This document shows positions 1-46,976 of a DNA stretch of 64,000 bases, one piece after another. A program made the position numbers and the translations under genes. Source of the DNA: Gemella morbillorum (GTDB lineage Bacteria > Bacillota > Bacilli > Staphylococcales > Gemellaceae); the NCBI RefSeq assembly GCF_900476045.1, contig NZ_LS483440.1, positions 124,001 through 188,000 of the forward strand. The letters run 5' to 3'. Position 1 is the first letter of the stretch. Every line of letters begins with the position of its first letter. Under the pieces are notes generated by a model. That model ran no database searches. It saw only the letters and a program-made list of their open reading frames with translations, and was not told where the DNA came from.

Positions 1-1388
1 TTATAATCATTTTTAGAATCTGGTTTTGAACCTTTATCTTTGTTAATATCCACAGGAAGAGAACCGTCAAGTTGCCAGTCGTTCCAACCTCCATCATAGA
101 AGTATGTATTAGCACGGCCAGTAAGTTGAGTCATAAACCATGGGATAGCGTTACGCCAACCTGTTCCACAGTAAAGAGCTATTTTATCTGTTTCAGCAAT
201 TCCCTGTCCTTTCCATAGGTTGTAGATTTCTTGAGGGTTACGCAAAGTACCGTCTGGATCCATATAGTCAGACATATCTCCTTTATTGTCACCAGCGAAA
301 CCGAAGATAGCCCCTTTAGGTTCACCAGCTTTTTCGATATAGTCATATCCACTAGTTTTACCTAAGTGTTCATCCCAAGCACGAATACTGACAAGTTTAA
401 TTCCTTCATTTTTTACTTTCTCAGCCATTTCTTTAGCACGAGAAATATTGTATTCTGGATGAGCTGGGATGTTTACACCGAAGTTAGAAGCTGCTTTTGG
501 TGTATTTGCTGTTGTTTCAGTTTTATAACCAGCTTCTTTCCAGTTTTTAAGGCTACCATTCATAATACGAACATCTTTTACTCCAGCCCATCTAAGTGCC
601 CAGTTAACACGGAAAGCTGCTGAAGCATCATCTGAATAAAGAATTATTGTTTTATCACTAGTAATTCCTTGTTTAAGAAGATTGGTTTTTATTTCATCGG
701 CAGAACGCAAGTTCCAAACTGGTCCATCTTCTATCCAATCTGTATTAAAGTGATATGCACCTTTAATATGTTCTTTATAGTTGATTGCTTTATCTCCTTC
801 TCCCCATGAAACTTCAAAGATTGAATAGTTATCTTTATTTGTATATGTTTCAGGAGTTTTGCCGTCTTGAATACTTTTTACCCATTCAGGCGAAACAAGA
901 TTTTGATATTCAGGATAAGTTACTAAATTATCTTTATTAGCATCATTATCAGCGAATTTTTTATAGTCTTCAAATTTGTAGACATCATAACCAAGTGTTG
1001 CTAGTTTATCAGAAACTTTTGCTATATTTTCCTTGTTTGTATCATAAACAACAATTTTTTTGTTTTTATCTAACCCTTTATCGCTAACAAATTTTGCTTC
1101 TTTATCTTTGTTAACTTTTCCTATAAATGAAGCGCTATATTGGATAGAATTTTTAAGATGGCCACCATTTTTAATACCATCTGTTTTGAAACCGTTATAT
1201 GCTTCATCGCTACGTGTATCAACGAATTGATACTCGCTGCTCCCTAAATTTTTTGTGAAATCATCTAAAGAAATAGTTTTAATTTCCTTTTTTTCACCTT
1301 GGCTTGTATTGGCATCTTTTGTAGAACACCCACTTAACACAAGACCGGAAGCAAGAAAAATCGCTCCTATTTTTTTAAAGTTTTTCAT
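1..1388 (-). CDS. Rhodanese-domain lipoprotein (thiosulfate sulfurtransferase-like), 3' end outside window
   Basis: The protein starts MKNFKKIGAIF and has a lipobox ending LSGC, so it should be an exported, lipid-anchored protein. About 462 codons are visible; the last complete codon is Tyr at 5-3, and no stop is reached before the window edge. Three rhodanese-like units can be read. The first two have degenerate active loops, whereas the third carries ALYCGTGWR, a CxxxxxR loop that can hold a persulfide. Function is therefore sulfur transfer outside the membrane, substrate unknown. The gene is divergent from prdC. The start is set by the signal peptide, but the Shine-Dalgarno lies unusually far upstream (see the hairpin entry). 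Confidence 0.85.
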   Translation of the reverse strand, partial: MKNFKKIGAIFLASGLVLSGCSTKDANTSQGEKKEIKTISLDDFTKNLGSSEYQFVDTRSDEAYNGFKTDGIKNGGHLKNSIQYSASFIGKVNKDKEAKFVSDKGLDKNKKIVVYDTNKENIAKVSDKLATLGYDVYKFEDYKKFADNDANKDNLVTYPEYQNLVSPEWVKSIQDGKTPETYTNKDNYSIFEVSWGEGDKAINYKEHIKGAYHFNTDWIEDGPVWNLRSADEIKTNLLKQGITSDKTIILYSDDASAAFRVNWALRWAGVKDVRIMNGSLKNWKEAGYKTETTANTPKAASNFGVNIPAHPEYNISRAKEMAEKVKNEGIKLVSIRAWDEHLGKTSGYDYIEKAGEPKGAIFGFAGDNKGDMSDYMDPDGTLRNPQEIYNLWKGQGIAETDKIALYCGTGWRNAIPWFMTQLTGRANTYFYDGGWNDWQLDGSLPVDINKDKGSKPDSKNDY

Positions 1389-1810: not shown

Positions 1811-3130
1811 ATGATAGAGTTTGATGTTGAAAAAATACACATTCCGTTAAAACAACACGTAGGTGGTCCATGTCAAGCAATAGTTAATGTGGGTGACCAT
1901 GTTAAACGTGGGCAACTTGTTGCTGTACCAGCTGGATTAGGGGCTAATATTCACGCAAGTTTGTCAGGAGTTGTTGAAGAAATAACTGAAATGGATATAG
2001 TTGTGAAACTAGATAAAGAACAAACTGATGATTATGTGAGATTAGAAAAAACAGATGATTATCTGCAAAAAATTAAAGATGCTGGTATCGTAGGTGTTGG
2101 TGGAGCAGGATTCCCTACTGGAATCAAGTTTTCTACACAAATTCCTGGTGGATATCTTATAGCTAACGCAGCTGAGTGTGAACCAATTTTAGGACATAAT
2201 GTTAAATTTATGGAAGAACAACCAGAAGTGCTTGTTCGTGGTATGAAATACATTATGGAACTAACAGGTGCTAAAGAAGGATATATTGCTATTAAAACAA
2301 AATATCGTAAAGCACTATTAGCATTAGGTAAAGCATGTAAAAATGAGCCTAATATCAGTATTAAGATTTTACCTAATATGTACCCAGCAGGGGACGAACG
2401 TGTTATCGTACGTGAAACATTAGGTGTGATTCTACAACCAGGTCAGTTGCCGTTAGAGGCTAATGCAATTATCTCAAACGTTGAAACTATTAAACATGTA
2501 GTAAATGCGATTGAAGATGATAAACCTCTTATAGACAAAGATTTAACAGTTGGTGGGCGTGTTCAAAATCCAAGTATTTTCTTAGATGTACCAATTGGAT
2601 TACCAATTAGTGTGTTTATAGAAAGAGCTGGAGGCTACATTAATCCGCATGGGGAAATAGTTCGAGGTGGACCATTTACAGGACGTCCAGCCCAAGAAGA
2701 TGAACCTATTAACAAAACAACTGGTGGGTTACTAGTTGCTATGCCATATCCACAAGAAAAAGAAAAAGTAGGGATACTTATTTGTGAGTGTGGAGCTCAG
2801 GAAGAGCGCCTTCGTCAAATTGCCGATGGTATGGGAGCAGAAGTAGTTTCTGTTCAAATGTGTAAACGTATGAAACCAGATAAAAATGGAAGATTACGTT
2901 GTGAATTACCAGGTATTTGCCCAGGGCAAGCGGAAAAAGTATTAAAAATGAAAAAAGATGGTGCGAAAGCAGTCATTGCTGGTACTTGTCAAGATTGAAC
3001 TAACACCGTGACAGGTGTAGCTCCTAGGTTAGGAGTAAAAGTTTATCATAGTACCGACCATGTACTTCGTGCCACTGACCATCATTTATATAGAAGCTAT
3101 AAGAGCTTAGAATTACACAATAATAATTAA
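1811..3130 (+). CDS. prdC: PrdC, selenocysteine-containing electron-transfer protein of proline reductase (in-frame UGA at 2996-2998)
   Basis: RnfC-like protein that in clostridia feeds electrons to D-proline reductase. The N-terminal part has the RnfC-type glycine-rich segment VGVGGAGFPTG and AAECEP; the C-terminal part is cysteine-rich (ICECG, QMCKRM, PGICPGQ). The frame meets TGA at codon 396 directly after GTCQD, but the same frame continues for 43 codons (TNTVTGVAPRLGVKVYHSTD...) to TAA at 3128-3130. Total length is 439 residues, close to my memory of clostridial PrdC. Reading UGA as selenocysteine creates a CxxU redox motif (C393, U396). Two hairpins follow the UGA. An AAAGGAGG site sits 8 nt before the ATG. 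This is the first gene of the prd operon. Confidence 0.9.
3003..3035 (+). promoter_or_regulatory. SECIS-like hairpins after the prdC UGA
   Basis: Two hairpins stand just downstream of the UGA at 2996. ACACC-GTGACA-GGTGT spans 3003-3018, and CTCCTA-GGT-TAGGAG spans 3021-3035. Bacterial SECIS elements lie within the coding sequence shortly after the UGA and bind SelB. The second hairpin is the stronger; which one acts cannot be decided by eye. Confidence 0.55.
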
Positions 3131-3151: not shown

Positions 3152-5089
3152 ATGTCAATTACAGCAGAAACAGCGAAAGAACATTTAAACGACAAGGCGG
3201 TATTTTGTTGCAGAGCTGAGGAAGGGATCGTAATTGGTCCAGATAACTTAGAAGATCCAGGACTATTTGATGATTTAGTAGATTCAGGTCTATTATCTTT
3301 CCCAGATGATGCATTAACAATCGGACAAGTATTAGGTGCAAAATTATTAAAAACAACAGATGCTCTAATACCAATTACACCAAGCATTATTGATGCAGTA
3401 CAAGGTGGAGAAGAAAAAGCAGAAGAAGCAGTAGAAGAAGTTGTAGAAGCAGCGCCAGTTGCAACAGCTCCTGTGGCAGAAGTTGCACCAGTTGCAGCTC
3501 CAGTAGCACAAGCTTCAGCACCAGCAGGTGTATTCAAACTTCAAATCGGAAAAGGGGAAAATATCAATTTAGAAATTCCTCTATCAGCATTTGCTGGTGG
3601 GCAAGCAACATCAGCAGCACCAGCTGCAGCACCAGCAGTAGAAGCTAAAGCAGTAGAAGTTAAAGCTGATGCACCAGTAGCAGCAGCAAAAGAAGAAAAA
3701 GTAGAAGGTGAATCAAAGTTCATCCGTTCTCTACACACTAAACATTACAAAATTGATGAAGTAGTATTTGGAGAAAAAACTGAAATTAAAGGAACTACTT
3801 TAGTATTAAGAACTCCAGAAGATTTATGTAAAGAAGCTGCAGAGTCAGAAGTATTAGTAGAAGATGTTAAATTAGAAATCATCACTCCTGATAAATATGA
3901 CACTTACAGTGAAACAATCATGGACGTTCAACCTATCTGTGTTAAAGAAGAAGGTGAAATTGGACATGGTATCACTCGTGAACTTAAAGGTGTAGTAATG
4001 GTTCTTACAGGGACTGATGCTAACGGAGTTCAAATTGGGGAATTCGGATCTTCTGAAGGTGAATTAGAACGTAACATTATGTGGGGACGTCCAGGTGCTC
4101 CAGATAAAGGTGAAATCTTCATTAAAGGTCAAGTAACAATTAAAGCAGGAGCTAACATGGAACGTCCAGGACCATTAGCAGCGCACAAAGCTTTCGACCA
4201 CATTACTGAAGAAATCCGTAAAGCTCTTAAAGAAGTAGAAGATGAAAGCCTAGTAGTAGGAAACATCAATATTGAACAATATCGTCACCCAGGAAACAAA
4301 AAAGTATTAATCGTTAAAGAAATCATGGGACAAGGTGCAATGCACGATAACTTAATCTTACCAGTTGAACCAGTAGGAACACTTGGTGCTAAACCAAACG
4401 TTGACCTTGGTAACTTACCAGTTATGCTTGCTCCAACAGAAGTATTAGACGGTGGTATCCACGCATTAACATGTATCGGACCAGCTTCTAAAGAAACTTC
4501 TCGTCACTACTACCGTGAACCATTAGTACTTGAAGCTATGGCTGACGAAGAAATCGACTTAGTAGGGGTATTACTAGTTGGATCACCTCAAGCTAACTCA
4601 GAAAAATTCTATGTATCTAAACGTGTTGGTATGACTATCGAAGCTATGGATATCGATGGTGCTATCGTTACAACTGAAGGATTTGGTAACAACCACATCG
4701 ACTTTGCTTCACACATCGAAGAAATCGGTAAACGTGGAGTATCAGTAGTTGGTATGACTTACTCTGCAGTACAAGGTGCTCTTGTTGTAGGTAACGAATA
4801 CATGTCAGCTATGGTTGATAACAACAAATCTAAACAAGGTATCGAAAACGAAATTCTTTCAAACAATACATTATGTAAAGAAGATGCTATCCGTGCTTTA
4901 GCAATGCTTAAAACACAAATGGGTGGCGGAACAATCAAAAAAGCTGAAAGAAAATGGAATCCAAACGTTAAATTAAACAACGTAGAAATTATCGAAAAAA
5001 CTACAGGCGAAAAATTAGAATTAGTTGATAACGAACAAGTGTTACCAAAATCTAAAAAACGTCAAGAAATTTACGAAAAAGAAGACTAA
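3152..5089 (+). CDS. prdA: PrdA, D-proline reductase pyruvoyl-dependent proprotein
   Basis: This is the 645-residue precursor of the two larger reductase subunits. Known biology: autocleavage before a cysteine turns that residue into a pyruvoyl group that binds D-proline. The expected site is ALTCIGPASKETS, with Thr440-Cys441 (Cys codon 4472-4474). Cleavage would yield a 440-residue chain and a 205-residue pyruvoyl chain, agreeing with the roughly 45 and 23 kDa subunits known from Clostridium sticklandii. Residues about 85-190 form a low-complexity Ala/Val/Glu linker, and CC lies near the N-terminus (VFCCRAEEG). GGAGG precedes the ATG, 21 bp after prdC. PrdD and PrdE further on are paralogous to its two halves. 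Confidence 0.93.
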   Translation: MSITAETAKEHLNDKAVFCCRAEEGIVIGPDNLEDPGLFDDLVDSGLLSFPDDALTIGQVLGAKLLKTTDALIPITPSIIDAVQGGEEKAEEAVEEVVEAAPVATAPVAEVAPVAAPVAQASAPAGVFKLQIGKGENINLEIPLSAFAGGQATSAAPAAAPAVEAKAVEVKADAPVAAAKEEKVEGESKFIRSLHTKHYKIDEVVFGEKTEIKGTTLVLRTPEDLCKEAAESEVLVEDVKLEIITPDKYDTYSETIMDVQPICVKEEGEIGHGITRELKGVVMVLTGTDANGVQIGEFGSSEGELERNIMWGRPGAPDKGEIFIKGQVTIKAGANMERPGPLAAHKAFDHITEEIRKALKEVEDESLVVGNINIEQYRHPGNKKVLIVKEIMGQGAMHDNLILPVEPVGTLGAKPNVDLGNLPVMLAPTEVLDGGIHALTCIGPASKETSRHYYREPLVLEAMADEEIDLVGVLLVGSPQANSEKFYVSKRVGMTIEAMDIDGAIVTTEGFGNNHIDFASHIEEIGKRGVSVVGMTYSAVQGALVVGNEYMSAMVDNNKSKQGIENEILSNNTLCKEDAIRALAMLKTQMGGGTIKKAERKWNPNVKLNNVEIIEKTTGEKLELVDNEQVLPKSKKRQEIYEKED

Positions 5090-5114: not shown

Positions 5115-5408
5115 ATGATTGAAAAATTAAAATATGCATCTACAGAAAGAGTGTTCGAAGGGGTTATAGTCGATCATAACGACGCCAGCGTTACGATAGA
5201 TATTAAAGGACGCCTAGGGCAATTTAAAATTCCTATGAGAATGCTAATCTCGGAATACCCAGTAAAAATCGGACAAGAAGTTGCCTTTTTACTAAGTTAT
5301 CCAGAAGTATTAAATGAAGAACCTGACGAACATTATGTAAATGCAATACTTAATACTAAAAAGTTAGAACAAGAAGTACAAAATAGAAAACACAACGAAG
5401 AAAAATAG
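5115..5408 (+). CDS. Small conserved protein between prdA and prdB
   Basis: A 97-residue soluble protein without signal or membrane segment. It is beta-rich at the start (FEGVIVDHNDASVTIDIKG) and ends in a charged helix. A small gene at this position is also found in clostridial prd clusters, to my recollection; its biochemical role is unknown to me. AGGAAG lies before the ATG, 25 bp after prdA and 18 bp before prdB, so it is cotranscribed and presumably serves assembly or maturation of the reductase (inference). Confidence 0.75.
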   Translation: MIEKLKYASTERVFEGVIVDHNDASVTIDIKGRLGQFKIPMRMLISEYPVKIGQEVAFLLSYPEVLNEEPDEHYVNAILNTKKLEQEVQNRKHNEEK

Positions 5409-5426: not shown

Positions 5427-6152
5427 ATGTCATTAACGATATTTGAAGGTCTACAATCAGAGATTTTTGTACCTATTACACCGAAACCAGTTTGGGCTCC
5501 AGTAACTAAAGAATTAAAAGATATGAAAGTAGCATTAGCTACAGCTGCAGGGGTTCACTTAAAAACAGATAAAAGATTTAACTTAGCAGGGGATACTACA
5601 TTCCGTGAAATCCCGGATACTGCTCACAGTTCAGATCTTATGGTATCTCACGGTGGATATGACAACGCTGACGCTAACAAAGATATCAACTGCATGTTCC
5701 CAATCGACAGATTACACGAACTTGCTAAAAAAGGTTTCATTAAAAGCGTAGCAGAATTCCACTACGGATTCATGGGTGGTGGTGGAGACCAAGAGGCTTT
5801 CACAAACTCTACAGGTCCAGAAATCGCTAAAAAACTAAAAGCAGAAAATGTTGATGCAGTTATTTTAACTGCTGGTTGAGGTACTTGCCATAGAACTGCC
5901 GTGATCGTGCAGAGAGCAATTGAGGAAGCAGGTATTCCAACAATCTTAATAGCAGCACTACCTCCAGTAGTGCGTCAAAACGGTACTCCAAGAGCCGTTG
6001 CTCCACTTGTACCAATGGGAGCAAACGCAGGAGAACCAGGAAACGTTGAGCAACAAACACAAATCTTAGAAGCAACATTAGAGCAACTAATTAAAATACC
6101 AAGTTCAGGTAAAATAGTTCCTCTTCCATTTGAGTACATCGCTCACGTGTAG
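5427..6152 (+). CDS. prdB: PrdB, selenocysteine subunit of D-proline reductase (in-frame UGA at 5877-5879)
   Basis: The catalytic selenoprotein that, with the PrdA pyruvoyl group, cleaves the proline ring to 5-aminovalerate. An ordinary ORF ends at TGA after 150 codons, but the same frame continues with GTCHRTAVIVQRAIEEAG and conserved proline-rich sequence (LPPVVRQNGTPRAVAP) to TAG at 6150-6152, giving 241 residues. Sec151 and Cys154 form a UxxC redox motif matching known PrdB. A stem-loop with SECIS geometry follows the UGA. AAGGAG sits before the ATG. No selA, selB, selD or tRNA-Sec gene is in this window, so the decoding genes must lie elsewhere. Confidence 0.93.
5885..5919 (+). promoter_or_regulatory. 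SECIS-like stem-loop after the prdB UGA
   Basis: Lower stem TTGC (5885-5888) with GCAA (5916-5919); upper stem CTGC (5896-5899) with GCAG (5909-5912). The apical part CGTGATCG can close two more pairs around a TGAT loop and leaves an unpaired T at 5908. The apical stem starts 19 nt after the UGA, inside the distance range of bacterial SECIS elements. Confidence 0.65.
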
Positions 6153-6161
6153 GAGAATTCC

Positions 6162-6191
6162 GAAGAGGGATGGAAATCCCTCTTCTTTTTT
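6162..6191 (+). terminator. Terminator between prdB and prdD
   Basis: Perfect 10-bp stem GAAGAGGGAT / ATCCCTCTTC with a GGAA loop and a run of Ts. It lies inside the operon, so it probably lowers expression of the downstream genes rather than ending the unit completely. Confidence 0.8.
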
Positions 6192-6218: not shown

Positions 6219-6266
6219 AGAGGTACTGTTACATTACAGATGAATAAATAAAAAGGGATGATAATT

Positions 6267-7004
6267 ATGTCAAGTGAGAAATTACAAATAAAAGCATTCC
6301 ATATAAAAGATGTTGCTTTAGGAAAAAAAGTAAAAATTGAGAATAATGAGTTAATTATTCCAACAGAAATAGAATATGATAAAGATATTTTTGAGAGTGT
6401 AGAGGTGAAAATAATACGCCCTCGTGAACATAATTTTTATGTTAATACTATAATGGACGTTGTACCAATTTCGACAAAGGTTATAGGACGTTTAGGAGAA
6501 GGGATTACACATACTCTGACAGGTGTTTATATGATTCTTACAGGAGCAAACACAGAAGGGAAACAAATGCATGAATTTGGTTCTTCAGAGGGTATCCTAC
6601 AAGAACAGTTAGTTTTAAACAAGGCTGGTTCACCAGCTGCTGATGATTATTTAATCCATATTGATGTTATTATAAAACCAGAAGCTGAGTTTAATCGTGA
6701 ACTAGCATTCTCAATTTTCGAGCTATCAGATGTTTATTTACAAAATATCAGAGAAGTTATGAAAGTTTTGAGTGGTCGTGATGCAGATGAAGTACATGAA
6801 TTTTATAATAAACAAAATCCAGGAAAACCAAAAGTAGCTTTAGTGAAAGAGGTAGCTGGACAAGGCATGATGTATGATAATCAACTGTTCCCTATTGAAC
6901 CTAGTGGAATAGATAAAGGTATTTCTATTATAGATATGAATAATATGCCCGTCTTATTAACACCAAACGAATATCGTGATGGTGCGATAAGAGCAATGGT
7001 ATAG
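6267..7004 (+). CDS. prdD: PrdD, paralogue of the N-terminal half of PrdA
   Basis: 245 residues resembling the PrdA segment before its cleavage site: IMDVVPIST, GEGITHTLTGVYMILTGA, HEFGSSEG and VALVKEVAGQGMMYDN all have PrdA counterparts. It ends in DGAIRAMV exactly where PrdA has its Thr-Cys cleavage pair, so it lacks a pyruvoyl precursor. An ATG at 6258 exists, but the AAAAGGG Shine-Dalgarno directly abuts it; the ATG at 6267 has proper spacing. The role is unsettled in the literature as I know it; partner of PrdE is likely. Confidence 0.85.
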   Translation: MSSEKLQIKAFHIKDVALGKKVKIENNELIIPTEIEYDKDIFESVEVKIIRPREHNFYVNTIMDVVPISTKVIGRLGEGITHTLTGVYMILTGANTEGKQMHEFGSSEGILQEQLVLNKAGSPAADDYLIHIDVIIKPEAEFNRELAFSIFELSDVYLQNIREVMKVLSGRDADEVHEFYNKQNPGKPKVALVKEVAGQGMMYDNQLFPIEPSGIDKGISIIDMNNMPVLLTPNEYRDGAIRAMV

Positions 7005-7018: not shown

Positions 7019-7486
7019 ATGGGTATAGGACCATCTACAAAAGAAACTAGTTTGCATCATTTTAGAGATCCATTATTAGATACTTTGGCAGAAGATCCGG
7101 ATATCGATTTCCAAGGGGTTATAGTTGTGGGAACTCCCCAAGACAACAGACTAAAACATTTAGTTGGTTGGAGAACAGCTACTTGGTTAGAAGCGATGAG
7201 AACGGATGGAGCTATAATCTCAGCAGATGGTTGGGGTAATAGTGATGTTGACTACGCTAATACTATGTTTGAAATAGGAGAGCGCGGTATTACAATAGTT
7301 GGTTTGAAATTTATGGGTAAACATAAATTTGTCGTAGAAAATGAATATACAAAATTTGTTTTAGACTTTAATAAATCAGAAGAAGGCGTAGAAACAGAAA
7401 TAGTTTGCCAAAACAATATTGATTATACTGATGCAAGAAAAGCCTTAGCATTGTTAAAATTAAAAATGAGACAAGATAACAAATAA
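7019..7486 (+). CDS. prdE: PrdE, paralogue of the C-terminal half of PrdA
   Basis: 155 residues starting MGIGPSTKETSLHH, which aligns with PrdA just after its pyruvoyl cysteine (CIGPASKETSRHY); here the initiating Met takes the place of that Cys. Also shared are GVIVVGTPQ, DGAIISADGWGNSDVDY and KFVVENEYT. It begins 14 bp after the PrdD stop with its own GGAAGGGG site. Without the cysteine it cannot form a pyruvoyl group, so a structural or regulatory role with PrdD is inferred. Confidence 0.85.
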   Translation: MGIGPSTKETSLHHFRDPLLDTLAEDPDIDFQGVIVVGTPQDNRLKHLVGWRTATWLEAMRTDGAIISADGWGNSDVDYANTMFEIGERGITIVGLKFMGKHKFVVENEYTKFVLDFNKSEEGVETEIVCQNNIDYTDARKALALLKLKMRQDNK

Positions 7487-7504: not shown

Positions 7505-8524
7505 ATGAAACTAAATAAAATGATTTCAGTTATTGATACACATACAGCAGGTGAAGCAGCAAGATTAGTAACTGCAGGTATTCCAAAAATTCCTGGTAAA
7601 GATATGGTTGAGAAAAAACAATACTTCATCGATCACTTAGATGATGTTCGTAAGTCTGTTATGTTTGAACCACGTGGACACCAAGATATGTTCGGAGCAT
7701 TCCTATTACCTCCAACAAAAGAGGAAGCTGATTTTGGATTAGTATTCATGGATACTGGTGGCTACTTAAATATGTGTGGACACAATACTATCGCGGCAGT
7801 AACTGCAGCTGTAGAAACTGGTATGGTTGATGTAGAAGAAGGCGCTACTGAAAAAGAAGTAGTAGTAGAAACACCAGCTGGACTTATTTATGCAACAGCT
7901 AAGTTAAAAGATAACGGAGCTAAAGTAAAAGAAGTTTCATTCAAAAACGTTGAATCATTCTTATACAAACGCGATGTAGAATTAGATGTAGAAGGAATCG
8001 GACATATCAAATTTGATATTTCATTTGGAGGAAGCTTCTTCTGTATCATCTCTGCAGATCAATTAGGATTAGAAGTTAAACCAGAAAATGCTTCTAAACT
8101 AAAAGAAGCAGGACTAAAAATTCGTGAAGCAGTTAATGCTAACATCGAAATTCAACACCCAACTTTAGAACATATTAAAACTGTAGACTTAGTTGAAATT
8201 TATGACAAACCTTCTCATCCAGAAGCTACTTATAAAAACGTAGTAGTATTCGGAGATGGAAACATCGACCGTTCTCCATGTGGAACAGGTACATCTGCAA
8301 AATTAGCTACATTATATGCTAAAGGTGAACTTAAACCAGGTGAACCATTCGTATATGAAAGTATCTTAGGTACTTTATTTAAAGGTAGAATAGTTGAAGA
8401 GAGAAAATTAGCGGGATATGATGCAATCATCCCTGAAATCACAGGTTCTGGTTATATTTTAGGATTTAGTAACTATGTTTACGATCCAGACGATGAATTA
8501 ACTTATGGATTCTTATTAGGATAG
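7505..8524 (+). CDS. prdF: PrdF, proline racemase
   Basis: A 339-residue cofactor-independent racemase that converts L-proline to the D-proline used by PrdAB. Both catalytic cysteines are visible: Cys91 in MCGHN and Cys259 in SPCGTGTSAK. Length and motifs match the proline racemase/hydroxyproline epimerase family, and the location in the prd operon settles the substrate as proline. A TAAGGAGTG ribosome binding site stands before the ATG, and the next gene follows within 15 bp. Confidence 0.95.
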   Translation: MKLNKMISVIDTHTAGEAARLVTAGIPKIPGKDMVEKKQYFIDHLDDVRKSVMFEPRGHQDMFGAFLLPPTKEEADFGLVFMDTGGYLNMCGHNTIAAVTAAVETGMVDVEEGATEKEVVVETPAGLIYATAKLKDNGAKVKEVSFKNVESFLYKRDVELDVEGIGHIKFDISFGGSFFCIISADQLGLEVKPENASKLKEAGLKIREAVNANIEIQHPTLEHIKTVDLVEIYDKPSHPEATYKNVVVFGDGNIDRSPCGTGTSAKLATLYAKGELKPGEPFVYESILGTLFKGRIVEERKLAGYDAIIPEITGSGYILGFSNYVYDPDDELTYGFLLG

Positions 8525-8538: not shown

Positions 8539-9417
8539 ATGGATTTATTGACAGTATTATTAATTATATTAGGGGCAGCAGGAGTATTCTTCTTAGTTTC
8601 ATTCATTATGGATATTGTAAAACATAAAGATGATTTAGGAAAAGAAAATCCAGTTATCGGATTCTTTATCGGGTTAGTGACTGACTTCTTCGATACATTA
8701 GGGATTGGAAGCTTCGCACCAACAACATTATTCTTTAAAATTACTAAATTTTTAGATACTGATAAAAAGATTCCTGGTACATTGAATGTTGCCCACACAA
8801 TTCCAGTATTAATGGAAGCGGCTTTATTCTTAACTGGGGTAAAAGTAGAAGGTGTTACACTATTCTCTATGATCGCAGCAGCAATCGTAGGTGCGTTAGT
8901 AGGAGCAAGAATAGTAAACAAACTTCCTGAGAAAAAAATCCAACTTGTTATGGGTGTGTGTTTAATCGTAACAGCATTCCTAATGATGTCAGGACAACTT
9001 GGATGGTTAAAAGCTCTTGGAGCTGGTAACGAAGCTGTAGGATTAACAGGTATTAAACTTATTATCGGTGTTGTAGGTAACTTCATTCTTGGAGCTCTTA
9101 TGATGGCTGGTGTAGGATTATATGCACCTTGTATGGCTATGGTTTACATGTTAGGTCTAAGCCCACTTGTAGCGTTCCCAATCATGATGGGTTCTTGTGC
9201 TGGACTTATGGCTATAGGTTCACCTGAATTCATTAAAGCAGGAAACTATACAAGAATTGGTTCTATAGCTATTGCTATAGGGGGTGTTATTGGGGTAACA
9301 GTCGCTTATACATTAGTTAAGAGTATGCCATTAGAAATTTTAACATGGGTAATCATCGGAGTTGTTATTATAACAGGTATCTCTATGATTAGACAAGGTA
9401 CTAAAAAAGCAGCTTAA
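8539..9417 (+). CDS. TauE/SafE-type membrane permease, prd operon
   Basis: 292 residues, strongly hydrophobic, about eight predicted membrane segments in two halves. The first half has GFFIGLVTDFFDTLGIGSF and the second has GNFILGALMMAGVG, the paired glycine-rich pattern of the TauE/SafE (sulfite exporter) superfamily. It is the last gene of the unit, 15 bp after prdF, with GGAGTG before the ATG and a strong terminator behind it. Its cargo is not shown by sequence; export of 5-aminovalerate or another proline-related ion is only a guess from context. Confidence 0.8.
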   Translation: MDLLTVLLIILGAAGVFFLVSFIMDIVKHKDDLGKENPVIGFFIGLVTDFFDTLGIGSFAPTTLFFKITKFLDTDKKIPGTLNVAHTIPVLMEAALFLTGVKVEGVTLFSMIAAAIVGALVGARIVNKLPEKKIQLVMGVCLIVTAFLMMSGQLGWLKALGAGNEAVGLTGIKLIIGVVGNFILGALMMAGVGLYAPCMAMVYMLGLSPLVAFPIMMGSCAGLMAIGSPEFIKAGNYTRIGSIAIAIGGVIGVTVAYTLVKSMPLEILTWVIIGVVIITGISMIRQGTKKAA

Positions 9418-9429
9418 TAAATAAATTAA

Positions 9430-9468
9430 AACGAAGTTTGAGATAAAATCAAACTTCGTTTTCTTTTT
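9430..9468 (+). terminator. Terminator of the prd operon
   Basis: Perfect 12-bp stem AACGAAGTTTGA / TCAAACTTCGTT around GATAAAA, followed by a long T run. Confidence 0.92.
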
Positions 9469-24262: not shown

Positions 24263-26386
24263 GTGAAAAATATTACAAAAAAATATGTTCATGTATTTAT
24301 GGCAGTTTTGTTAGTATTATCAGTATTTGTACCATTTTTAAAAACTGGTAATACCGTAAAAGCAGCAGAATTACCAGCAAATAAATATACTATGACAACC
24401 GTTCCAACAATCAATAATAATAAATTAGTTGATAATGCAAAATATGGGGAAGGTAAATTTTATCTACAACCAACGTATAGTTTCCCAGATGATGTAGTGC
24501 TAAAAAATGGAGACTATATGGTTTACCAAGTTCCAAACGAGTTTAAAATCGAACAAGATTTAACAACTGATTTGAGAGCGGCAGATGGAACAGTAATTGC
24601 ACAATTAACAACAAATAAAGCAACTAATACGGCAAAAGTCACAGTAACAAATCAAGATTACTTTGCTAACTTGCCAGAAGATAAAAAAATTACAGCTTTA
24701 TTTACTGTTGTATGGGCAGATAGTGTTAAGTTAGATACTCCATACAAAATCACGATTCCTGGTGCTGGGGTTTACAATTTAACTCGTATTGTACCAGATG
24801 AAGATCCAACAGGATTTACAAAATGGGGAGTTCAAGACTCAAGTGACCCTAACTATGTAAACTGGCGTATCCGTATTAACCGTTATGCAAAACAACTTAC
24901 AAACGTTAATATAGCAGATACTATCCCAGAAGGACAAGTATTAGCTAGTGATATTACAGGATACTATTTCACTGGATGGAATAAACCAGAAGCTCATCCT
25001 AAGTTAGATGCAGCACATGTAACTGTAACAGATCAAAATCATTTCTCAATCAATCCGAATGGTAATGGTAAATTAGATGGACAAGGGCTTTATATTTTAT
25101 ATAAAACACGTTTAACAGCACCTGTTGACAACACAACTAAAAAAGTATTTAACAATGCTAAAGTTACAACTGATCAAGGTGTTTTTGATGTACCAGGTTT
25201 TGCACCATTAACTACAACAGAAGGTATTGGAGCAGGTGGTAAATCAGATGAAGTTGTATTTGAGGTAACTAAAAAACTTGAAGGTAAAGCTCTAGAAGCA
25301 GATGCGTTCACTTTCCAATTAATTGCACCAGATGGAACTGTACAAGAAGCGAAAAACGACGCTAATGGAAAAGTGAAATTCCCAGCTGTTAAGTTCTCAA
25401 AAACAGGAACATTTAAATACCAAATCAAAGAAGTAGATGGTAAAAAAGGTGGATACACTTATGATACTAAAACTATCAATGCAACAGTTACAGTAACAGA
25501 TGTGTATGGAGTTAAGACAGCAAGTGTAAAATATGATAATAAAGAATTCAAAAATACTTATAAAGCAGCTGAAACAACAGTTCAATTAGAAGCGACAAAA
25601 GTATTGAAAAATAAAGTACTAGAAGCAGAGAAGTATGAATTTGAATTAAAAGAAAATGGTGCGCTTGTTAGTACAGCTAAGAATGATGCAGCAGGAAAAA
25701 TTACATTCCCAGCAATTACATATAAAGAAGCAGGGAAACACACTTACACTATTACAGAAAAAGCAGGATCAGGGGATGATGGAGTAGCATACGATCCTAA
25801 TGCTTATGAAGTTACAGTAGATGTAAAAGATAATGGTGAAGGTAAATTAGTAGCAACAGTGACAGGGTTAGATAATCTAACTTTTGTAAATGTTTATACA
25901 CCAAAACCAACAAAAGCAACTATCAATGCTAAAAAAGAATTAGCTGGTAAAAACTTAGAAGATAACGAATTCACCTTTGTAGTAAAAGAAGGAACTAAAG
26001 TAGTAGGAACAGCTAAAAACAAAGCAGATGGAACAGTTACTTTCAATATAGAATATAAAGAAGCAGGGACTCATAATTATAAACTGACTGAAGTAAATGA
26101 AGGAAAAGACGGGTATACTTATGATGATGCTTCTTATGACGTAAAAGTAGAAGTTACTGACAATGGTGGTCAACTTGAAGCAAAAGTTACTGGACCTGAA
26201 GATAAAGCAATATTTAAAAATACTTACAAACCAAAAGGAGAAACTCCTGGTGGTTCAAATGACCCAGATCCTAAGGGAACATTACCAAAAACAGGGGCTA
26301 CTGATTCACCAGTATTACCTGGACTTTTAGGACTTGTGCTTATAGCAGTATCTGCATTCCTATATCGCGCTAGAAATAATAACTAA
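24263..26386 (+). CDS. LPxTG-anchored surface protein with isopeptide-type repeat domains (3 repeats)
   Basis: 707 residues from a GTG start with AGGAGG in front. Signal peptide (residues 1-35, cut near KAAE), an adhesin-like N-terminal region (about 36-325), then three repeats of about 110 residues (starting near VTKKLEGKAL, TKVLKNKVLEAE and KKELAGKNLED). Each repeat ends with F-N/K-N-x-Y, the pilin-type pattern of Lys-Asn isopeptide domains (Spy0128/FctA-like). The C-terminus has LPKTG, a hydrophobic helix and RARNNN for sortase anchoring. No sortase or pilin operon is nearby, so a single-chain adhesin is likeliest. Confidence 0.88.
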   Translation: MKNITKKYVHVFMAVLLVLSVFVPFLKTGNTVKAAELPANKYTMTTVPTINNNKLVDNAKYGEGKFYLQPTYSFPDDVVLKNGDYMVYQVPNEFKIEQDLTTDLRAADGTVIAQLTTNKATNTAKVTVTNQDYFANLPEDKKITALFTVVWADSVKLDTPYKITIPGAGVYNLTRIVPDEDPTGFTKWGVQDSSDPNYVNWRIRINRYAKQLTNVNIADTIPEGQVLASDITGYYFTGWNKPEAHPKLDAAHVTVTDQNHFSINPNGNGKLDGQGLYILYKTRLTAPVDNTTKKVFNNAKVTTDQGVFDVPGFAPLTTTEGIGAGGKSDEVVFEVTKKLEGKALEADAFTFQLIAPDGTVQEAKNDANGKVKFPAVKFSKTGTFKYQIKEVDGKKGGYTYDTKTINATVTVTDVYGVKTASVKYDNKEFKNTYKAAETTVQLEATKVLKNKVLEAEKYEFELKENGALVSTAKNDAAGKITFPAITYKEAGKHTYTITEKAGSGDDGVAYDPNAYEVTVDVKDNGEGKLVATVTGLDNLTFVNVYTPKPTKATINAKKELAGKNLEDNEFTFVVKEGTKVVGTAKNKADGTVTFNIEYKEAGTHNYKLTEVNEGKDGYTYDDASYDVKVEVTDNGGQLEAKVTGPEDKAIFKNTYKPKGETPGGSNDPDPKGTLPKTGATDSPVLPGLLGLVLIAVSAFLYRARNNN

Positions 26387-26441
26387 TTTTGGTTTTAACC
26401 TAGAGAAAGAAAACTATTTGCTACTTACAGTGATGATAAAT

Positions 26442-26475
26442 AAAAAAAGAGAGAATTCTTATTCTCTCTTTTTTT
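26442..26475. terminator. Terminator of surface protein 1
   Basis: Perfect stem AAAAAAAGAGAGAAT / ATTCTCTCTTTTTTT with a TCTT loop. The stretch 26476-26747 that follows is AT-rich and shows no gene. Confidence 0.92.
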
Positions 26476-26749
26476 ATGTTTATTAGGTAAATAATACTTT
26501 TTAAAAAAATATGTGATTATTAGAGTAATAGTGACGAATGTTGTTGCTAAAATGAAAAATATTTTTAATTATTATTTAACAGAAAATTGGAGAAAAATTA
26601 GTAAAAAAAATGAGATATTTTTTTGAAAATTAAATAATAATTTCTTTGTTGATTTATACTACAAGAATAAGGTTTTTTGTTAAGTTATAATTAAGATAAT
26701 GATATATATTTTTTATATCATAAAAAAGTGGAAAATCAAAATTAAATTC

Positions 26750-26822
26750 TTGCAAAATTATAAAAGAATATATATAATATAAAGTAAGGATTTATGCCTA
26801 AATATTTAAGGAGGATAATATA
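26750..26822 (+). promoter_or_regulatory. Promoter and leader of surface protein 2 (copy of 24190)
   Basis: TTGCAA (26750-26755), 17 bp, TATAAT (26773-26778), AAGGAGG; identical to the block before surface protein 1 and offset by exactly 2560 bp, the length of the duplicated unit. Confidence 0.75.
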
Positions 26823-29800
26823 GTGAAAAATATTACAAAAAAATATGTTCATGTATTTATGGCAGTTCTGTTAGTATTATCAGTATTTGTGCCATTTTTA
26901 AAAACTGGTAATACCGTAAAAGCAGCAGAATTACCAGCAAATAAATATAACATGACAGCGACTGTGAAAATCAATAATAATCCAATTGTAAATAATGCAA
27001 AATACGGGGAAGGAAAATTCTATATATCACCAACATATAGTTTCCCAAATGATGTAGTATTACAAAATGGAGATTATATGGTTTACCAAGTTCCAAACGA
27101 GTTTAAAATCGAAAAAGATTCAACAACTGATTTGAGAGCAGCAGATGGAACAGTAATCGCGAAATTAACAACAAATAAAGCAGCTAATACGGCAACAGTT
27201 ACAGTAACAAATCAAGACTACTTTGCTAACTTGCCAGAAGATAAACAAATTACAGCTTTATTTACTGTTGTATGGGCAGATAGTGTTAAGTTAGATACTC
27301 CATATAACATTACTTTCCCTGGGGCTGGAAACTATACTCTAACTCGTATTGTTCCAGATGATGACCCAACAGGATTTACAAAATGGGGAGTTCAAAACTC
27401 AAGTGACCCTAACTATGTAGACTGGCGTATCCGTATTAACCGTTATGCAAAACACTTTACAAATGTTAATATAGCAGATACTATCCCAGAAGGACAAGTA
27501 TTAGCTAGTGATATTACAGGATACTATTTCACTGAATGGAATAAAGCAGAAACACGTCCACTATTAGCAAAAACGGATGTAACTGTAACAGATCCAAATC
27601 ATTTTAGCATTAGACCAAACGGTGGTACGCTAGACAACAAAGGTTTATATGTAATGTATAGAACTCGTTTAACAGCACCTGTTGATAATGCTACTAAAAA
27701 AGCATTCAACAATGCTACAGCTACAACAGATCAAGGGAATTTTGATATACCAGGTTTTGCACCACTAACTACAACAGAAGGTATTGGAGCAGGTGGTAAA
27801 TCAGACGAAGTTGAATTCCAAGTTACTAAAAAACTTGAAGGTAAAGCTCTAGAAGCAGATGAATTTACTTTCCAATTAATCGCACCAGATGGAACTGTAA
27901 AAGAAGCGAAAAACGATGCTAAAGGAAAAGTAAAATTCCCAGCTGTTAAGTTCTCAAGTACTGGAACATTTAATTACCAAATCAAAGAAGTAGATGGTAA
28001 AAAAGGTGGATACACTTATGACACTAAAACTATCAACGCAACAGTTACTGTAGAAGATGTTTACGGTGTTAAAATGGCAAGTGTAAAATATGATAATAAA
28101 GAATTCAAAAATACTTATAAAGCAGCTGAAACAACAGTTCAACTAGAAGGAACAAAAGTACTGAAAAACAAAGTACTAGAAGCAGAAAAGTATGAATTCG
28201 AATTAAAAGAAAATGGTGCGCTTGTTAGCACAGCTAAGAATGATGCAGCAGGAAAAATTACATTCCCAGTAATTACATATACAGAAGCAGGGAAACACAC
28301 TTACACTATTACAGAAAAAGCAGGATCAGGGGATGATGGAGTAGCATATGACCCTAATGCTTATGAAGTTACAGTAGATGTAAAAGATAATGGTGAAGGT
28401 AAATTAGTAGCAACAGTGACAGGTTTAGACAACCTAACTTTTGTAAACGTTTATACAGCAAAACCAACAAAAGCAACTATTACAGCAACAAAAGCACTAA
28501 ACGGAAGCACATTAAAAGATGATCAATTTGAATTTGAACTAAAAGAAGGTGCTAAAGTAGTAGGAACAGCTAAAAACAAAGCAGACGGAACAATTACTTT
28601 CGAAGATATTACATATACAGAAGCAGGAGTGCATACATATACTCTAACAGAGAAAGAAGGAACAGAAGGTGGGGTTACGTACGATAAAACTTCTCACGAA
28701 GTAAAAGTAGAAGTTACTGACAATGGACAAGGTAAATTAGTAGCGGCAGTAACAGGAAATAACCCAGCATTCACAAATACATATAAAGCAGCTGAAACAA
28801 AAGCAACTATTACAGCAACAAAAGTACTAAACGGAAGCACATTAAAAGATGATCAATTTGAATTTGAACTAAAAGAGGGTGCTAAAGTAGTAGGAACAGC
28901 TAAAAACAAAGCAGACGGAACAGTTACTTTCGAAGATATTACATATACAGAAGTAGGAGTGCATACATATACTCTAACAGAGAAAGAAGGAACAGAAGGT
29001 GGGGTTACGTACGATAAAACTCCTCGTGAAGTAAAAGTAGAAGTTACTGACAATGGACAAGGTAAGTTAGTAGCGGCAGTAACAGGAAATAACCCAACAT
29101 TTACAAACATATATAAAGCAACTGAAACAAAAGCAACTATTACAGCTAAAAAAGTATTAGAAGGTAAAGCTTTAGAAGCAGACAAATATGAGTTTGAACT
29201 AAAAGAGGGTGCTAAAGTAGTAGGAACAGCTAAAAACAAAGCAGACGGAACAGTTACTTTCGAAGATATTACATATACAGAAGTAGGAGAACATGAATAC
29301 ACTGTAACAGAAAAAGCAGGAAATGAAGCAGGAGTTACATATGATTCAAAATCTTATACAGTAAAAGTAAAAGTTACTGACAACGGACAAGGACAACTTG
29401 AAGCAGCAGTAACAGATAATAACCCAACATTTACAAATACATATAAAGCGGCTGCAACAAAAGCAACTATTAAAGCTAAAAAAGTATTAGAAGGTAAAGA
29501 TTTAGAAGCAGACAAATATGAGTTTGAACTAAAAGAAGGAACTGAAGTAGTAGGAACAGCTAAAAACAAAGCAGATGGATCAATTGCTTTCGATGTAGAG
29601 TATACAAAAGCAGGAGAACATGAATACACTGTAACAGAAAAAGCAGGAAAAGAAGAAGGAATTACATATGATTCAAAATCTTATACTGTAAAAGTAAAAG
29701 TTACTGACAATGGACAAGGACAACTTGAAGCGAAAGTAACAGGAGATGGAGATAATGTGATATTTACAAATAAATATAACAAACCAGACAAACCAGCAAC

Positions 29801-29948
29801 AGAAACTCCTGATGGTTCAAATGATCCAGAACCTAAAAAAACATTACCAAATACAGGGGCTACTGATTCTCCATTATTCCCTAGCCTTTTAGGACTTGTA
29901 CTTGCAGCATTATCTATCTTCTTATATCGCACTAAAGATGCTCGATAA
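26823..29948 (+). CDS. LPxTG-anchored surface protein with isopeptide-type repeat domains (6 repeats)
   Basis: 1041 residues, paralogue of the upstream protein. The first 36 residues are identical; the adhesin-like region is similar but diverged, especially at residues about 37-75 and 235-300. Six repeat domains follow: two corresponding to repeats 1-2 of the neighbour and four of exactly 330 bp each (from 28470). Sorting signal LPNTG, hydrophobic helix, RTKDAR. Repeat number probably sets how far the adhesin head projects from the wall. GTG start with AGGAGG. Confidence 0.88.
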   Translation: MKNITKKYVHVFMAVLLVLSVFVPFLKTGNTVKAAELPANKYNMTATVKINNNPIVNNAKYGEGKFYISPTYSFPNDVVLQNGDYMVYQVPNEFKIEKDSTTDLRAADGTVIAKLTTNKAANTATVTVTNQDYFANLPEDKQITALFTVVWADSVKLDTPYNITFPGAGNYTLTRIVPDDDPTGFTKWGVQNSSDPNYVDWRIRINRYAKHFTNVNIADTIPEGQVLASDITGYYFTEWNKAETRPLLAKTDVTVTDPNHFSIRPNGGTLDNKGLYVMYRTRLTAPVDNATKKAFNNATATTDQGNFDIPGFAPLTTTEGIGAGGKSDEVEFQVTKKLEGKALEADEFTFQLIAPDGTVKEAKNDAKGKVKFPAVKFSSTGTFNYQIKEVDGKKGGYTYDTKTINATVTVEDVYGVKMASVKYDNKEFKNTYKAAETTVQLEGTKVLKNKVLEAEKYEFELKENGALVSTAKNDAAGKITFPVITYTEAGKHTYTITEKAGSGDDGVAYDPNAYEVTVDVKDNGEGKLVATVTGLDNLTFVNVYTAKPTKATITATKALNGSTLKDDQFEFELKEGAKVVGTAKNKADGTITFEDITYTEAGVHTYTLTEKEGTEGGVTYDKTSHEVKVEVTDNGQGKLVAAVTGNNPAFTNTYKAAETKATITATKVLNGSTLKDDQFEFELKEGAKVVGTAKNKADGTVTFEDITYTEVGVHTYTLTEKEGTEGGVTYDKTPREVKVEVTDNGQGKLVAAVTGNNPTFTNIYKATETKATITAKKVLEGKALEADKYEFELKEGAKVVGTAKNKADGTVTFEDITYTEVGEHEYTVTEKAGNEAGVTYDSKSYTVKVKVTDNGQGQLEAAVTDNNPTFTNTYKAAATKATIKAKKVLEGKDLEADKYEFELKEGTEVVGTAKNKADGSIAFDVEYTKAGEHEYTVTEKAGKEEGITYDSKSYTVKVKVTDNGQGQLEAKVTGDGDNVIFTNKYNKPDKPATETPDGSNDPEPKKTLPNTGATDSPLFPSLLGLVLAALSIFLYRTKDAR
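28470..29780 (+). repeat. Tandem 330-bp domain repeats inside surface protein 2
   Basis: Unit starts (AAAGCAACTATTA...) at 28470, 28800, 29130 and 29460 are exactly 330 bp apart. Units 1 and 2 differ at only a few bases. Units 3 and 4 share a different first third (LEGKxLEADKYEF instead of LNGSTLKDDQFEF). This pattern indicates recent amplification and allows copy-number change by recombination. Confidence 0.9.
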
Positions 29949-35282: not shown

Positions 35283-35465
35283 TTATTTTTCATCAATATC
35301 GCAGTCCAAATTAACATTTTCGAAATACTCTTCAAGCATTGCCAGTTTTGTTTGTAGTTCGTCAAATACTCTTATATTTCCGAATACCTCAACTCTATGA
35401 TTTAGGCTCATTTGAATCATATAATCCTGTTTGTTCAATCCCGATAATGCTATTTTCTCTTCCAA
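35283..35465 (-). pseudogene. MobC-like relaxosome protein fragment
   Basis: 60 residues, KIALSGLNKQDYMIQMSLNH and VEVFGNIRVFDELQTKLAML, resembling the middle of small plasmid/ICE mobilization proteins of the MobC/ribbon-helix-helix type. The N-terminus is missing. Past its stop another frame resumes with ELLAYILEMFETVNRN, suggesting a frameshift. It overlaps the 3' end of the integrase gene in a different frame. Confidence 0.45.
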
Positions 35466-36651
35466 TAAACTTTGTATTCGAGTTAGTTGTGTTAAACTTG
35501 ATTTTTATATTTCCAGTTATCATATCAGCGATACTTCTATCATTATTACCCCAAAGATGAGAGTAATGTTTTAGTGTTATCTCTGGACTAGAGTGACCTA
35601 ATCTTTTAGATATTACTAGTATATCTGCATTATGCTCGTTAATTAAATAGCTAGCATGACTGTGTCTAAGTCCTTTAGCTTGAATTTTGTGAACATCAGC
35701 TAAATTAGAACGTTTATTAATTATTCTACCAACAATACATCTATGTAAAGGTGTGCCATCATAACTCATTATAAAATGGCTATTTACTAATTTTTGTTGC
35801 CGCCTTTTCCACTCCTTTAATATCTTTATAGTATCATCATCTAGCGAGATGATACGTTTGCTATTTTCAGTTTTAAGAGTTAGGCTTCGTGTATATTCTT
35901 TTTTGGACTTCATATCAAGATTATGATGAACTCTTAATGTCTTTTTAGTAAAATCAATATCCGACCAATATAATGCTAAGCCTTCTGAAACACGTATTCC
36001 AGTTACATAGTATAGCCATATCATAACGAAGTGAAGGTGCTCTAGATAATCACTTTTATCAAAGGTAGAAATTACTTTCTCAAACTCATTCTTAGTCCAG
36101 TAAGGGATGTTAGATTTACCTTTAGGAATGGCTGATGTTTTCTTAGATACATTTTCCGAAAGGAATTGTCTAAAAACAGCATAATCTAAAGACTTTCTAA
36201 ATGCTCCGTATAATAGAGAGCAGTATGCTTGAGAATATCCGCTATGATTTAATAAGTAGATTCTAAAATTTTCACAATCGGCAATACTAATGTTACGTAG
36301 TTTCTTTCCTTTAAATCTATTTATAAAAATAGGTAATATAGTTTTTCTATTCTTCCATGTATTTTCACTTACTGTTGATTTGTAGTGTGGCAAATAAACT
36401 GTATTCATGAATTGCTCATAGGTCATATTATAGTTATGAGAACCACCTTTAGATTCTTTAAATTTTGCTTTTACTTTTATCAGCTCATCATTACAAGATT
36501 TTGCTGATTTGAAAGGTAAACCGTGAGAATCACGGCTACCTTTCTTCTGAATTCTTTTACCAGTTATCTGGTCCACACCGAGTTCCACGTTGTAGAAAAA
36601 GTAACCTGTTTTTTCATTTTTATAAACTCCGGGGAATTTTGTTTTTGTCAT
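35395..36651 (-). CDS. int: Tyrosine integrase of the guaA element
   Basis: 418 residues: an AP2-like N-terminal arm-binding region (GVYKNEKTGYFFYNVELG), SAM-like core domain (TYEQFMNTVYLPHYKSTV), and catalytic domain with Arg in TGIRVSEGL, HSHASYL after the second Arg (LRHSH), LGHSS and the nucleophile Tyr in LKHYSHLW. Tn916-type family. The last about 20 residues (FIGRENSIIGIEQTGLYDSNEPKS) run over the MobC-like fragment in another frame, so the native C-terminus may have been replaced at a junction. Its start overlaps the DUF3173 stop (TAATG). Confidence 0.92.
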   Translation of the reverse strand: MTKTKFPGVYKNEKTGYFFYNVELGVDQITGKRIQKKGSRDSHGLPFKSAKSCNDELIKVKAKFKESKGGSHNYNMTYEQFMNTVYLPHYKSTVSENTWKNRKTILPIFINRFKGKKLRNISIADCENFRIYLLNHSGYSQAYCSLLYGAFRKSLDYAVFRQFLSENVSKKTSAIPKGKSNIPYWTKNEFEKVISTFDKSDYLEHLHFVMIWLYYVTGIRVSEGLALYWSDIDFTKKTLRVHHNLDMKSKKEYTRSLTLKTENSKRIISLDDDTIKILKEWKRRQQKLVNSHFIMSYDGTPLHRCIVGRIINKRSNLADVHKIQAKGLRHSHASYLINEHNADILVISKRLGHSSPEITLKHYSHLWGNNDRSIADMITGNIKIKFNTTNSNTKFIGRENSIIGIEQTGLYDSNEPKS

Positions 36652-36851
36652 TACGCTATATCCTCCTGTATAGGAAATTTCAAACCGAGTATTTCTTCAA
36701 CAATTTCTTTTGGAACTGTGCCAATGCGGTTGTTTTCATAAATAGTGTAACCTCTATTAACAAGCTGAACTTTCGCTTGTTTTATCACCGAGCGAGCGGT
36801 ATGTTTCGGGAATCCTAGATGCATAACATCTTTGTAAGTTATAGTAATCAT
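36651..36851 (-). CDS. DUF3173 protein, likely excisionase/directionality factor
   Basis: 66 residues, MITITYKDVMHLGFPKHTAR, a small helix-turn-helix protein of the DUF3173 family that typically sits directly before integrases of Gram-positive integrative elements. The stop overlaps the integrase ATG by one base, so they are translationally coupled. GGAGG precedes the ATG. Confidence 0.8.
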   Translation of the reverse strand: MITITYKDVMHLGFPKHTARSVIKQAKVQLVNRGYTIYENNRIGTVPKEIVEEILGLKFPIQEDIA

Positions 36852-36907
36852 AAGAACCTCCTTTTATCTGATTTAATATTATTACTTCATAAACTTTCCT
36901 TATAATT

Positions 36908-39679: not shown

Positions 39680-39702
39680 TGAAATTACCTCTCTGTTTTT
39701 AT

Positions 39703-39737
39703 TTTTGGGTTGGATGGGTTACCCAGGTGTCCCAAAA
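39703..39737. promoter_or_regulatory. 35-bp two-tier palindrome upstream of the primase-helicase
   Basis: TTTTGGG (39703-39709) pairs with CCCAAAA (39731-39737), and TGGGT (39715-39719) with ACCCA (39721-39725). The tiers are separated by unpaired 5-nt segments on each side, exactly symmetric about 39720. Candidate replication origin or operator. The rest of 39738-39888 is very AT-rich and shows no gene. Confidence 0.5.
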
Positions 39738-39888
39738 TTTTTTAGAAGACAAGTACTTGCTCTATATATTTTTTGAAAGTGCATTTTCTAATGATATGAT
39801 AACATAAAGAAGAATAATGTTTATCATAAAATTTGGTAAAAAAAATCTAATAAGAAAAAAAGACAAATAATACTTATATAAATTAAAA

Positions 39889-39910
39889 ACCACTACTTTA
39901 AAGCAGTGGT
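39889..39910 (-). terminator. Terminator of the 639-residue gene
   Basis: ACCACT-N10-AGTGGT with, on the minus strand, a following TTTTTAATTT. Confidence 0.75.
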
Positions 39911-41829: not shown

Positions 41830-41861
41830 GAGAATCCTCCATATTTTTTTCCTAAATTATA

Positions 41862-42368
41862 TCACATAAACTCCCATTTTGCTCTCACTTTTGGTGCTAG
41901 AGGATGAAAATTTTCTTGTTTGTTGTTATCAGTAAGAAAAAGTATTTTTTTCTTTAATTTGTTTTTAGCTAGTAACGAAATAATTGAATCTAATCTATCT
42001 TTTACGTGTTTGTTAGTTTTAGGGAGTGAGCCACAAGCTATAATTATTTTATCAGACTCTTTAGCACACTCTAGTATGTGCTTTGTATTATTTGTATTCT
42101 TCTGATTTTCAAATCTCCGATTTCCCGTTAAAATCTTCGAATATAGATTAACACTATAAAATCCACCAAAGTTATTTCTGTACACATTATTAGTAATAAA
42201 TGTAGTTGTAGAATCATTTATAATAAGCTCGCTTGTGCTTGGGTATAATGTTAATATAGTGACCATAGGTTTATTTTCATCCCAGACTTTCTTTAATATA
42301 AATCTTTCTTTGCCATCATCTGACATTAGTAATTCTATTTGAATATTTGCTGATAGTATTTTTGTCAT
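41862..42368 (-). CDS. DUF1643-family protein
   Basis: 168 residues. VWDENKPMVTILTLYPSTSELIINDSTT, NNFGGFYSVNLYSKI and IIACGSLPKTNKHVKDRL follow the DUF1643 layout (a statement about a missing-function family seen often on phages and mobile elements). Biochemical role unknown. It ends 32 bp before the 639-residue gene begins, so they share a transcript. Confidence 0.8.
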   Translation of the reverse strand: MTKILSANIQIELLMSDDGKERFILKKVWDENKPMVTILTLYPSTSELIINDSTTTFITNNVYRNNFGGFYSVNLYSKILTGNRRFENQKNTNNTKHILECAKESDKIIIACGSLPKTNKHVKDRLDSIISLLAKNKLKKKILFLTDNNKQENFHPLAPKVRAKWEFM

Positions 42369-42475
42369 TGTTTTATCCTTTCTATGCTGTTACTTTTTGA
42401 TATAGTTTAATAATTATTACAGTTATTTCATATATAGCCTTTATCCAGTCTAAGATAGAGGCTTTATTTCTTTTG

Positions 42476-42766
42476 TTAGATTTTCTCATATTTACTGAAC
42501 ACTAACCTTTCTTGTTTTAGTATGCCTGTTAAAAGTTTTTTTGTCATATCAGGATTATAGAAAATATAAACCGTAATATCTGCATAATAAAAAAAGATAA
42601 CTTGATATGATTTGTGCTTCATTACATCATAAAAGTTAGTAGGTAATAATTGGCTATCTAACTCATCTATAGTAAGGAGATAACTCTCAGATATTAATTC
42701 AGAGTAGTTAATATTTAAATTTAGTTTGTTATAAAGTAAGTTAATGATTTGATTAATATCTACCAT
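42476..42766 (-). CDS. Small unknown protein coupled to the RadC-like gene
   Basis: 96 residues, no recognised motif; slightly hydrophobic strand-rich middle (YQVIFFYYADITVYIFYNPD). Its start overlaps the end of the RadC-like gene by 7 nt, implying coupled translation and a joint role. Confidence 0.65.
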   Translation of the reverse strand: MVDINQIINLLYNKLNLNINYSELISESYLLTIDELDSQLLPTNFYDVMKHKSYQVIFFYYADITVYIFYNPDMTKKLLTGILKQERLVFSKYEKI

Positions 42767-43218: not shown

Positions 43219-43247
43219 TATTAGACTCCTTTTTGTAAAAAATAAAA

Positions 43248-43277
43248 AACCTAACTAGTGTTAAAACTAATTAGGTT
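43248..43277 (-). terminator. Terminator of the PrsW-like gene
   Basis: AACCTAATTAGT / ACTAGTTAGGTT hairpin on the minus strand followed by TTTTTTATTTTTT. Confidence 0.8.
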
Positions 43278-43291
43278 CGCAAAATATTTGA

Positions 43292-44503: not shown

Positions 44504-44659
44504 GATTATATATTTCCTTTCATTGAAATTAATATTTTATTTTAAGAATATGTGCTTAAAAGATACTTTATAAAAGTATAATCAACTAGTGTTGCAGTTA
44601 TATATTTATATGAGTAATATGTAGTTTATTAGAGAGAACGATTTAATCTTATTGTATTA

Positions 44660-46936: not shown

Positions 46937-46976
46937 ATTAAATCCCCTCCTTTACAATAATTATTATAAGTTTTTT

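Follow-up and report, generated by a model that had tools for sequence, protein, structure and literature searches.

The 64,000-nucleotide window analyzed here, positions 124001-188000 of a complete 1,760,930-base Gemella genome, almost certainly carries a complete D-proline reductase operon, arranged as prdC-prdA-(CBO2463)-prdB-prdD-prdE-prdF-tauE, in which the UGA codons within prdB and prdC are read as selenocysteine (Sec). PrdB and PrdC are described selenoproteins of the Clostridium sticklandii proline reductase operon (PMC3091704; PMC13188914). From the identity of the genes, the positions of the UGA codons, the Sec machinery of the genome, the conservation of the loci and the constraint on their codons, we infer that Sec is inserted in the cell and that the enzyme is active.

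As read with the standard code, prdB (5427..6152, plus strand) begins as a 150-codon open reading frame (5427-5879) with a TGA as its terminal codon (5877..5879). It had originally been predicted that this in-frame TGA splits a single gene whose frame continues for a further 90 codons, and that it specifies the Sec of the PrdB motif. Translating the TGA as Sec yields a single 241-residue protein that ends at a TAG (6150-6152) and matches the PrdB model TIGR04483 from end to end (positions 1-238 of 238, 400.9 bits against a curated cut-off of 300), bearing out the first of these claims, and the TGA aligns with the known PrdB Sec, as the second required. The Sec falls at residue 151 in the motif TAGUGTCHR, where UGTC represents UxxC. 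In 80 of 80 loci from other genomes, including Gemella, Enterococcus, Vagococcus, Companilactobacillus, Peptostreptococcaceae and others, the same codon is TGA. Moreover, the frame past the TGA contains no stops in 82 orthologues, against averages of 7.9 and 6.1 in the remaining two frames. The 90-codon extension is the longest among TGA-ended open reading frames of the window, where the median extension after all stops is 8 codons, and this length, together with the stop-free frame in orthologues, indicates that the extension is not due to chance. The region 3' of the TGA is under purifying selection, as is the region 5' of it, with pN/pS of 0.04-0.17 between Gemella species. A search of the PDB with PrdB returned no sequence relative. 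Elsewhere in the window, another long TGA-ended frame (41862-42368, minus strand) is followed by a 37-codon extension.

The operon opens with prdC (1811..3130, plus strand), which is split by a TGA (2996..2998, plus strand) in the same manner, a second selenoprotein case that was missing from the original prediction. With this TGA translated as Sec, prdC encodes an NADH/RnfC-like electron transfer selenoprotein of 439 amino acids (TIGR04481, 596.5 bits, cut-off 490) with Sec396 in the motif GTCQDU, CQDU being the CxxU motif. Comparison of prdC loci identified TGA at this position in 55, the window included, and a Cys codon in 9 others.

The remaining genes of the operon, all on the plus strand, are likewise recognizable. 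The D-proline reductase proprotein is encoded by prdA (3152..5089; TIGR04480, 991.6 bits), in which Cys441 (4472-4474) is predicted to be the pyruvoyl-forming residue from its ALTCIGP motif and from the point at which PrdD and PrdE are split. PrdD (6258..7004; TIGR04482, 369.5 bits) and PrdE (7019..7486; TIGR04480 positions 415-565, 148.5 bits) are paralogues of the middle and C-terminal parts of PrdA, respectively, divided exactly at its predicted pyruvoyl site. Between prdA and prdB lies a gene for a CBO2463/CBO2479-domain protein (5115..5408; NF041553, 89.3 bits), which occupies the same place in the compared loci. Downstream of prdE are prdF, encoding a proline racemase (7505..8524; PF05544, 415.4 bits), and the last gene of the operon, which encodes a TauE/SafE-type membrane protein (8539..9417; PF01925, 54.9 bits) that is kept here in most loci and possibly stands in the place of prdG. 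A terminator-like hairpin with a T run separates prdB from prdD (6162..6185, plus strand), and given its position past prdB, prdD-F may be less expressed than prdA-B; a second terminator-like hairpin lies past the last gene (9428-9462). This gene order is common to Gemella, Enterococcus, Vagococcus, Companilactobacillus and Peptostreptococcaceae, although it varies, for example by the lack of prdC or prdF in some. Divergent from prdC, a gene on the minus strand (window 3-1388) encodes a lipoprotein with three rhodanese domains, and such a gene also adjoins the prd operon in two other Gemella species (loci L041 and L044).

A further claim of the original prediction was that the genome must encode SelA, SelB, SelD and a tRNA-Sec with a UCA anticodon. 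A whole-genome search recovered all four, so the machinery for Sec is not absent from this organism. The tRNA-Sec (genome 235213-235305) carries the UCA anticodon and scores 68.7 bits, over the tRNA-Sec family cut-off. The protein genes selD (genome 241320-242345), selB (243557-245416) and selA (246670-248019) belong to a selenium gene cluster with the order selD, YedF-like, DUF3343-like, selB, cysteine desulfurase-like, selA, in which the three "-like" names were assigned by eye. An in-frame TGA is also found within selD itself (241359), in the motif CGGUNSKIGPG, bringing the selenoproteins detected in the genome to three (PrdB, PrdC and SelD). No other PrdB/GrdB match was found in the genome, and no formate dehydrogenase, the control for which did give a signal elsewhere; GrdA also gave no match, but its control was silent too, making this a weak absence.

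In bacteria, the SECIS element is described as a hairpin located 16-37 nt past the UGA with a G in the first two loop positions, and -7.5 kcal/mol or better is the quoted energy threshold (PMC13188914). When synonymous codon conservation was computed over locus pairs of no more than 85% identity, codons +5 to +12 past the TGA formed the top-constraint window of the whole gene in both prdB (z 5.1) and prdC (z 6.7), in the stretch where any SECIS hairpin would have to lie. Because each z value is scaled to the other windows of its own gene and the loci are related, these are not formal probabilities. The 9 prdC with Cys instead of Sec displayed no such peak, based on 32 pairs only. In prdC, fold, constraint and stem-pair conservation point to a SECIS-like hairpin at 3020..3036 (plus strand), in which four pairs of the inner stem are preserved in 28-31 of the 31 distinct sequences compared and which has an apical loop, GGU, 28 nt past the UGA, a loop and distance that match the published bacterial model (PMC13188914). 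The selD hairpin, with the loop GGG 17 nt past the UGA, agrees with this model in distance and loop G as that of prdC does, and each of the two ranks in the top 0.4% of sampled coding positions. The candidate in prdB (5896..5912, plus strand; CUGCCG-UGAU-CG-U-GCAG), with the loop UGAU 22 nt past the UGA, outranks 94% of coding positions (top 6%), and in isolation its energy is -6.6 kcal/mol, short of the threshold. The 50-nt fold past the UGA was unusual for prdC (z -2.86), moderate for selD (z -1.48) and no stabler than shuffles for prdB (z 0.30). The prdB fold is unremarkable and its hairpin energy misses the threshold; it is the codon constraint that argues for a SECIS element in this gene. 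RNAalifold on 82 prdB sequences produced no convincing single consensus hairpin, apparently because two alternative stems are in use, and no annotated RNA was detected with Rfam in the initial 12 kb of the window.

Given that the open reading frame mechanically ends at the TGA, prdB might be taken for a pseudogene, or for the product of a sequencing error, with a true stop that truncates the protein at residue 150. However, the recurrence of TGA at this codon in every one of the 80 loci from independent genomes, the stop-free and selectively constrained frame downstream of it, and the presence of the Sec machinery render this explanation vanishingly improbable. It is also extremely improbable that UGA is read as tryptophan, or as cysteine by near-cognate readthrough, instead of Sec. 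TGA is indeed rare as a stop in the window (5 of 45 long open reading frames), as would be expected under such a reading, but the genome possesses a UCA-anticodon tRNA over the tRNA-Sec family cut-off along with SelA, SelB and SelD, and the codon constraint downstream of the TGA is position specific. In addition, the homologues without Sec have Cys at this position: the three non-Sec PrdB of Gemella carry Cys (TGT) and not Trp, and the nine non-Sec PrdC likewise carry Cys. Under selenium starvation, it is possible that Cys is misincorporated at the UGA.

A different type of explanation accepts the genes as they are, but supposes a silent operon, or a vestige of one, that Gemella retains without function. 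We regard this as very unlikely, given that all operon genes are intact, that prdB is under purifying selection, that the operon is conserved across Gemella species and their relatives, and that the Sec machinery is retained in 9 of 9 genomes of the genus.

If the operon is instead a functional proline reductase with Sec at both UGA codons, as we favor, SelD and SelA would make the Sec-tRNA, and SelB with Sec-tRNA-Sec would recognize the hairpin just 3' of each UGA. By analogy with C. sticklandii, PrdF would convert L-proline to D-proline, cleaved PrdA would bind the D-proline via its pyruvoyl group, and Sec151 of PrdB would attack so that the ring is opened to yield 5-aminovalerate. PrdC may carry electrons from NADH through its CxxU center to PrdB, and NAD+ would thereby be regenerated in amino acid fermentation.

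The Gemella operon differs from that of C. sticklandii in its host, a facultatively anaerobic coccus of the class Bacilli. The C. sticklandii operon comprises the same subunits (prdA, B, C, D, E and F), with Sec at corresponding positions and in corresponding motifs (Sec152 of PrdB in UxxC, Sec392 of PrdC in CxxU), PrdD and PrdE as split PrdA paralogues, and the racemase inside the cluster (PMC3091704). In Clostridioides difficile, PrdB is approximately 80% identical and its gene has the TGA at the corresponding codon, and the order from prdA through the TauE-type gene is the same. In contrast with Gemella, the fetched sequence upstream of prdA gave no PrdC match, and the C. difficile PrdC is reported to have Cys in the Sec position (PMC3091704). 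Enterococcus, Vagococcus and Companilactobacillus belong to the same class and share the prdC-to-tauE order and the TGA in both prdB and prdC, but their PrdA is approximately 62-73% identical and they occupy neighboring tree branches. A second, all-cysteine prd-like operon was detected in three other Gemella genomes (L140-L142; L140:8000-13691) and is absent from the present genome. It shares PrdC, PrdA, CBO-like and PrdB homologues with the operon described here, but its PrdB is 55% identical with Cys (TGT) for Sec, its PrdC, in the one read (L140), has CTDC with Cys instead of Sec, its PrdE and PrdD are fused in reversed order, and no PrdF racemase match was found in the fetched stretch. This all-cysteine operon may act on a substrate other than proline.

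Among 157 genomes of the order, PrdB above cut-off was found in 8 and SelA above cut-off in 12, all from the Gemella family, and tRNA-Sec, sought in the family only, was found in 11 of its 15 genomes. Three more Gemella-family genomes displayed only a weaker PrdB match, in a frame of approximately 438 residues that is GrdB-like in appearance. SelA, tRNA-Sec and Sec enzymes co-occur in the Gemella family, and neither full-length SelA nor PrdB was found in any other of these genomes of the order. In a midpoint-rooted FastTree phylogeny of PrdA, B, D, E and F, Gemella was placed among the Bacilli, adjoining Companilactobacillus, and the window operon grouped with those of G. sanguinis and G. haemolysans. 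The original prediction had considered a Sec-containing PrdB notable should the host prove to be Gemella. The host is indeed Gemella, but this placed too much weight on it, as Sec-PrdB is widespread in Bacilli, including many Enterococcus, Vagococcus and Companilactobacillus. One member of the Gemella family, G012, lacks both tRNA-Sec and PrdB; its sel operon survives only as a deletion scar, with selD codons 1-49 joined to selA codons 384-460 (L145:9830-10194).

We consider it likely that Gemella, a human-associated facultative anaerobe, reduces proline in a selenium-dependent, Stickland-type manner and maintains an entire Sec system for only three detected selenoproteins, and that within the Gemella family the Sec trait was acquired as a unit and, by one relative, given up as a unit. 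A Gemella species should be able to use proline as a selenium-dependent electron acceptor, a process best known from clostridia, which bears on competition for proline in the mouth and gut. The family also represents a compact natural experiment in the gain and loss of a selenocysteine system, and automated gene prediction that treats TGA as a stop will cut both prdB and prdC short here. Enzymes of this type are well known, and what seems undescribed is only their occurrence in the genus Gemella: the open-access PMC literature yielded no link of Gemella to proline reductase or selenocysteine, although such a link may be reported outside it. In one paper (PMC4417235), the closest relative of the trypanosome racemase among bacteria is taken to be the proline racemase of Gemella.

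Several other features of the window were also observed. Positions 24263-29948 encode two related LPXTG surface proteins in tandem, the second of which combines six repeats of the FctA type (Spy0128-like isopeptide) with a collagen-binding-type domain. The region 35395-51064 is likely an integrated element, with a tyrosine integrase, a DUF927 protein, a RadC-like protein and a resolvase, as well as an SMC-like ATPase (47147-49636) that weakly matches several defense ATPases and a Fic-type protein (50393-51064) that matches the candidate defense family PDC-S04. Finally, positions 55897-57933 encode a metal P-type ATPase whose N-terminus is very rich in histidine.
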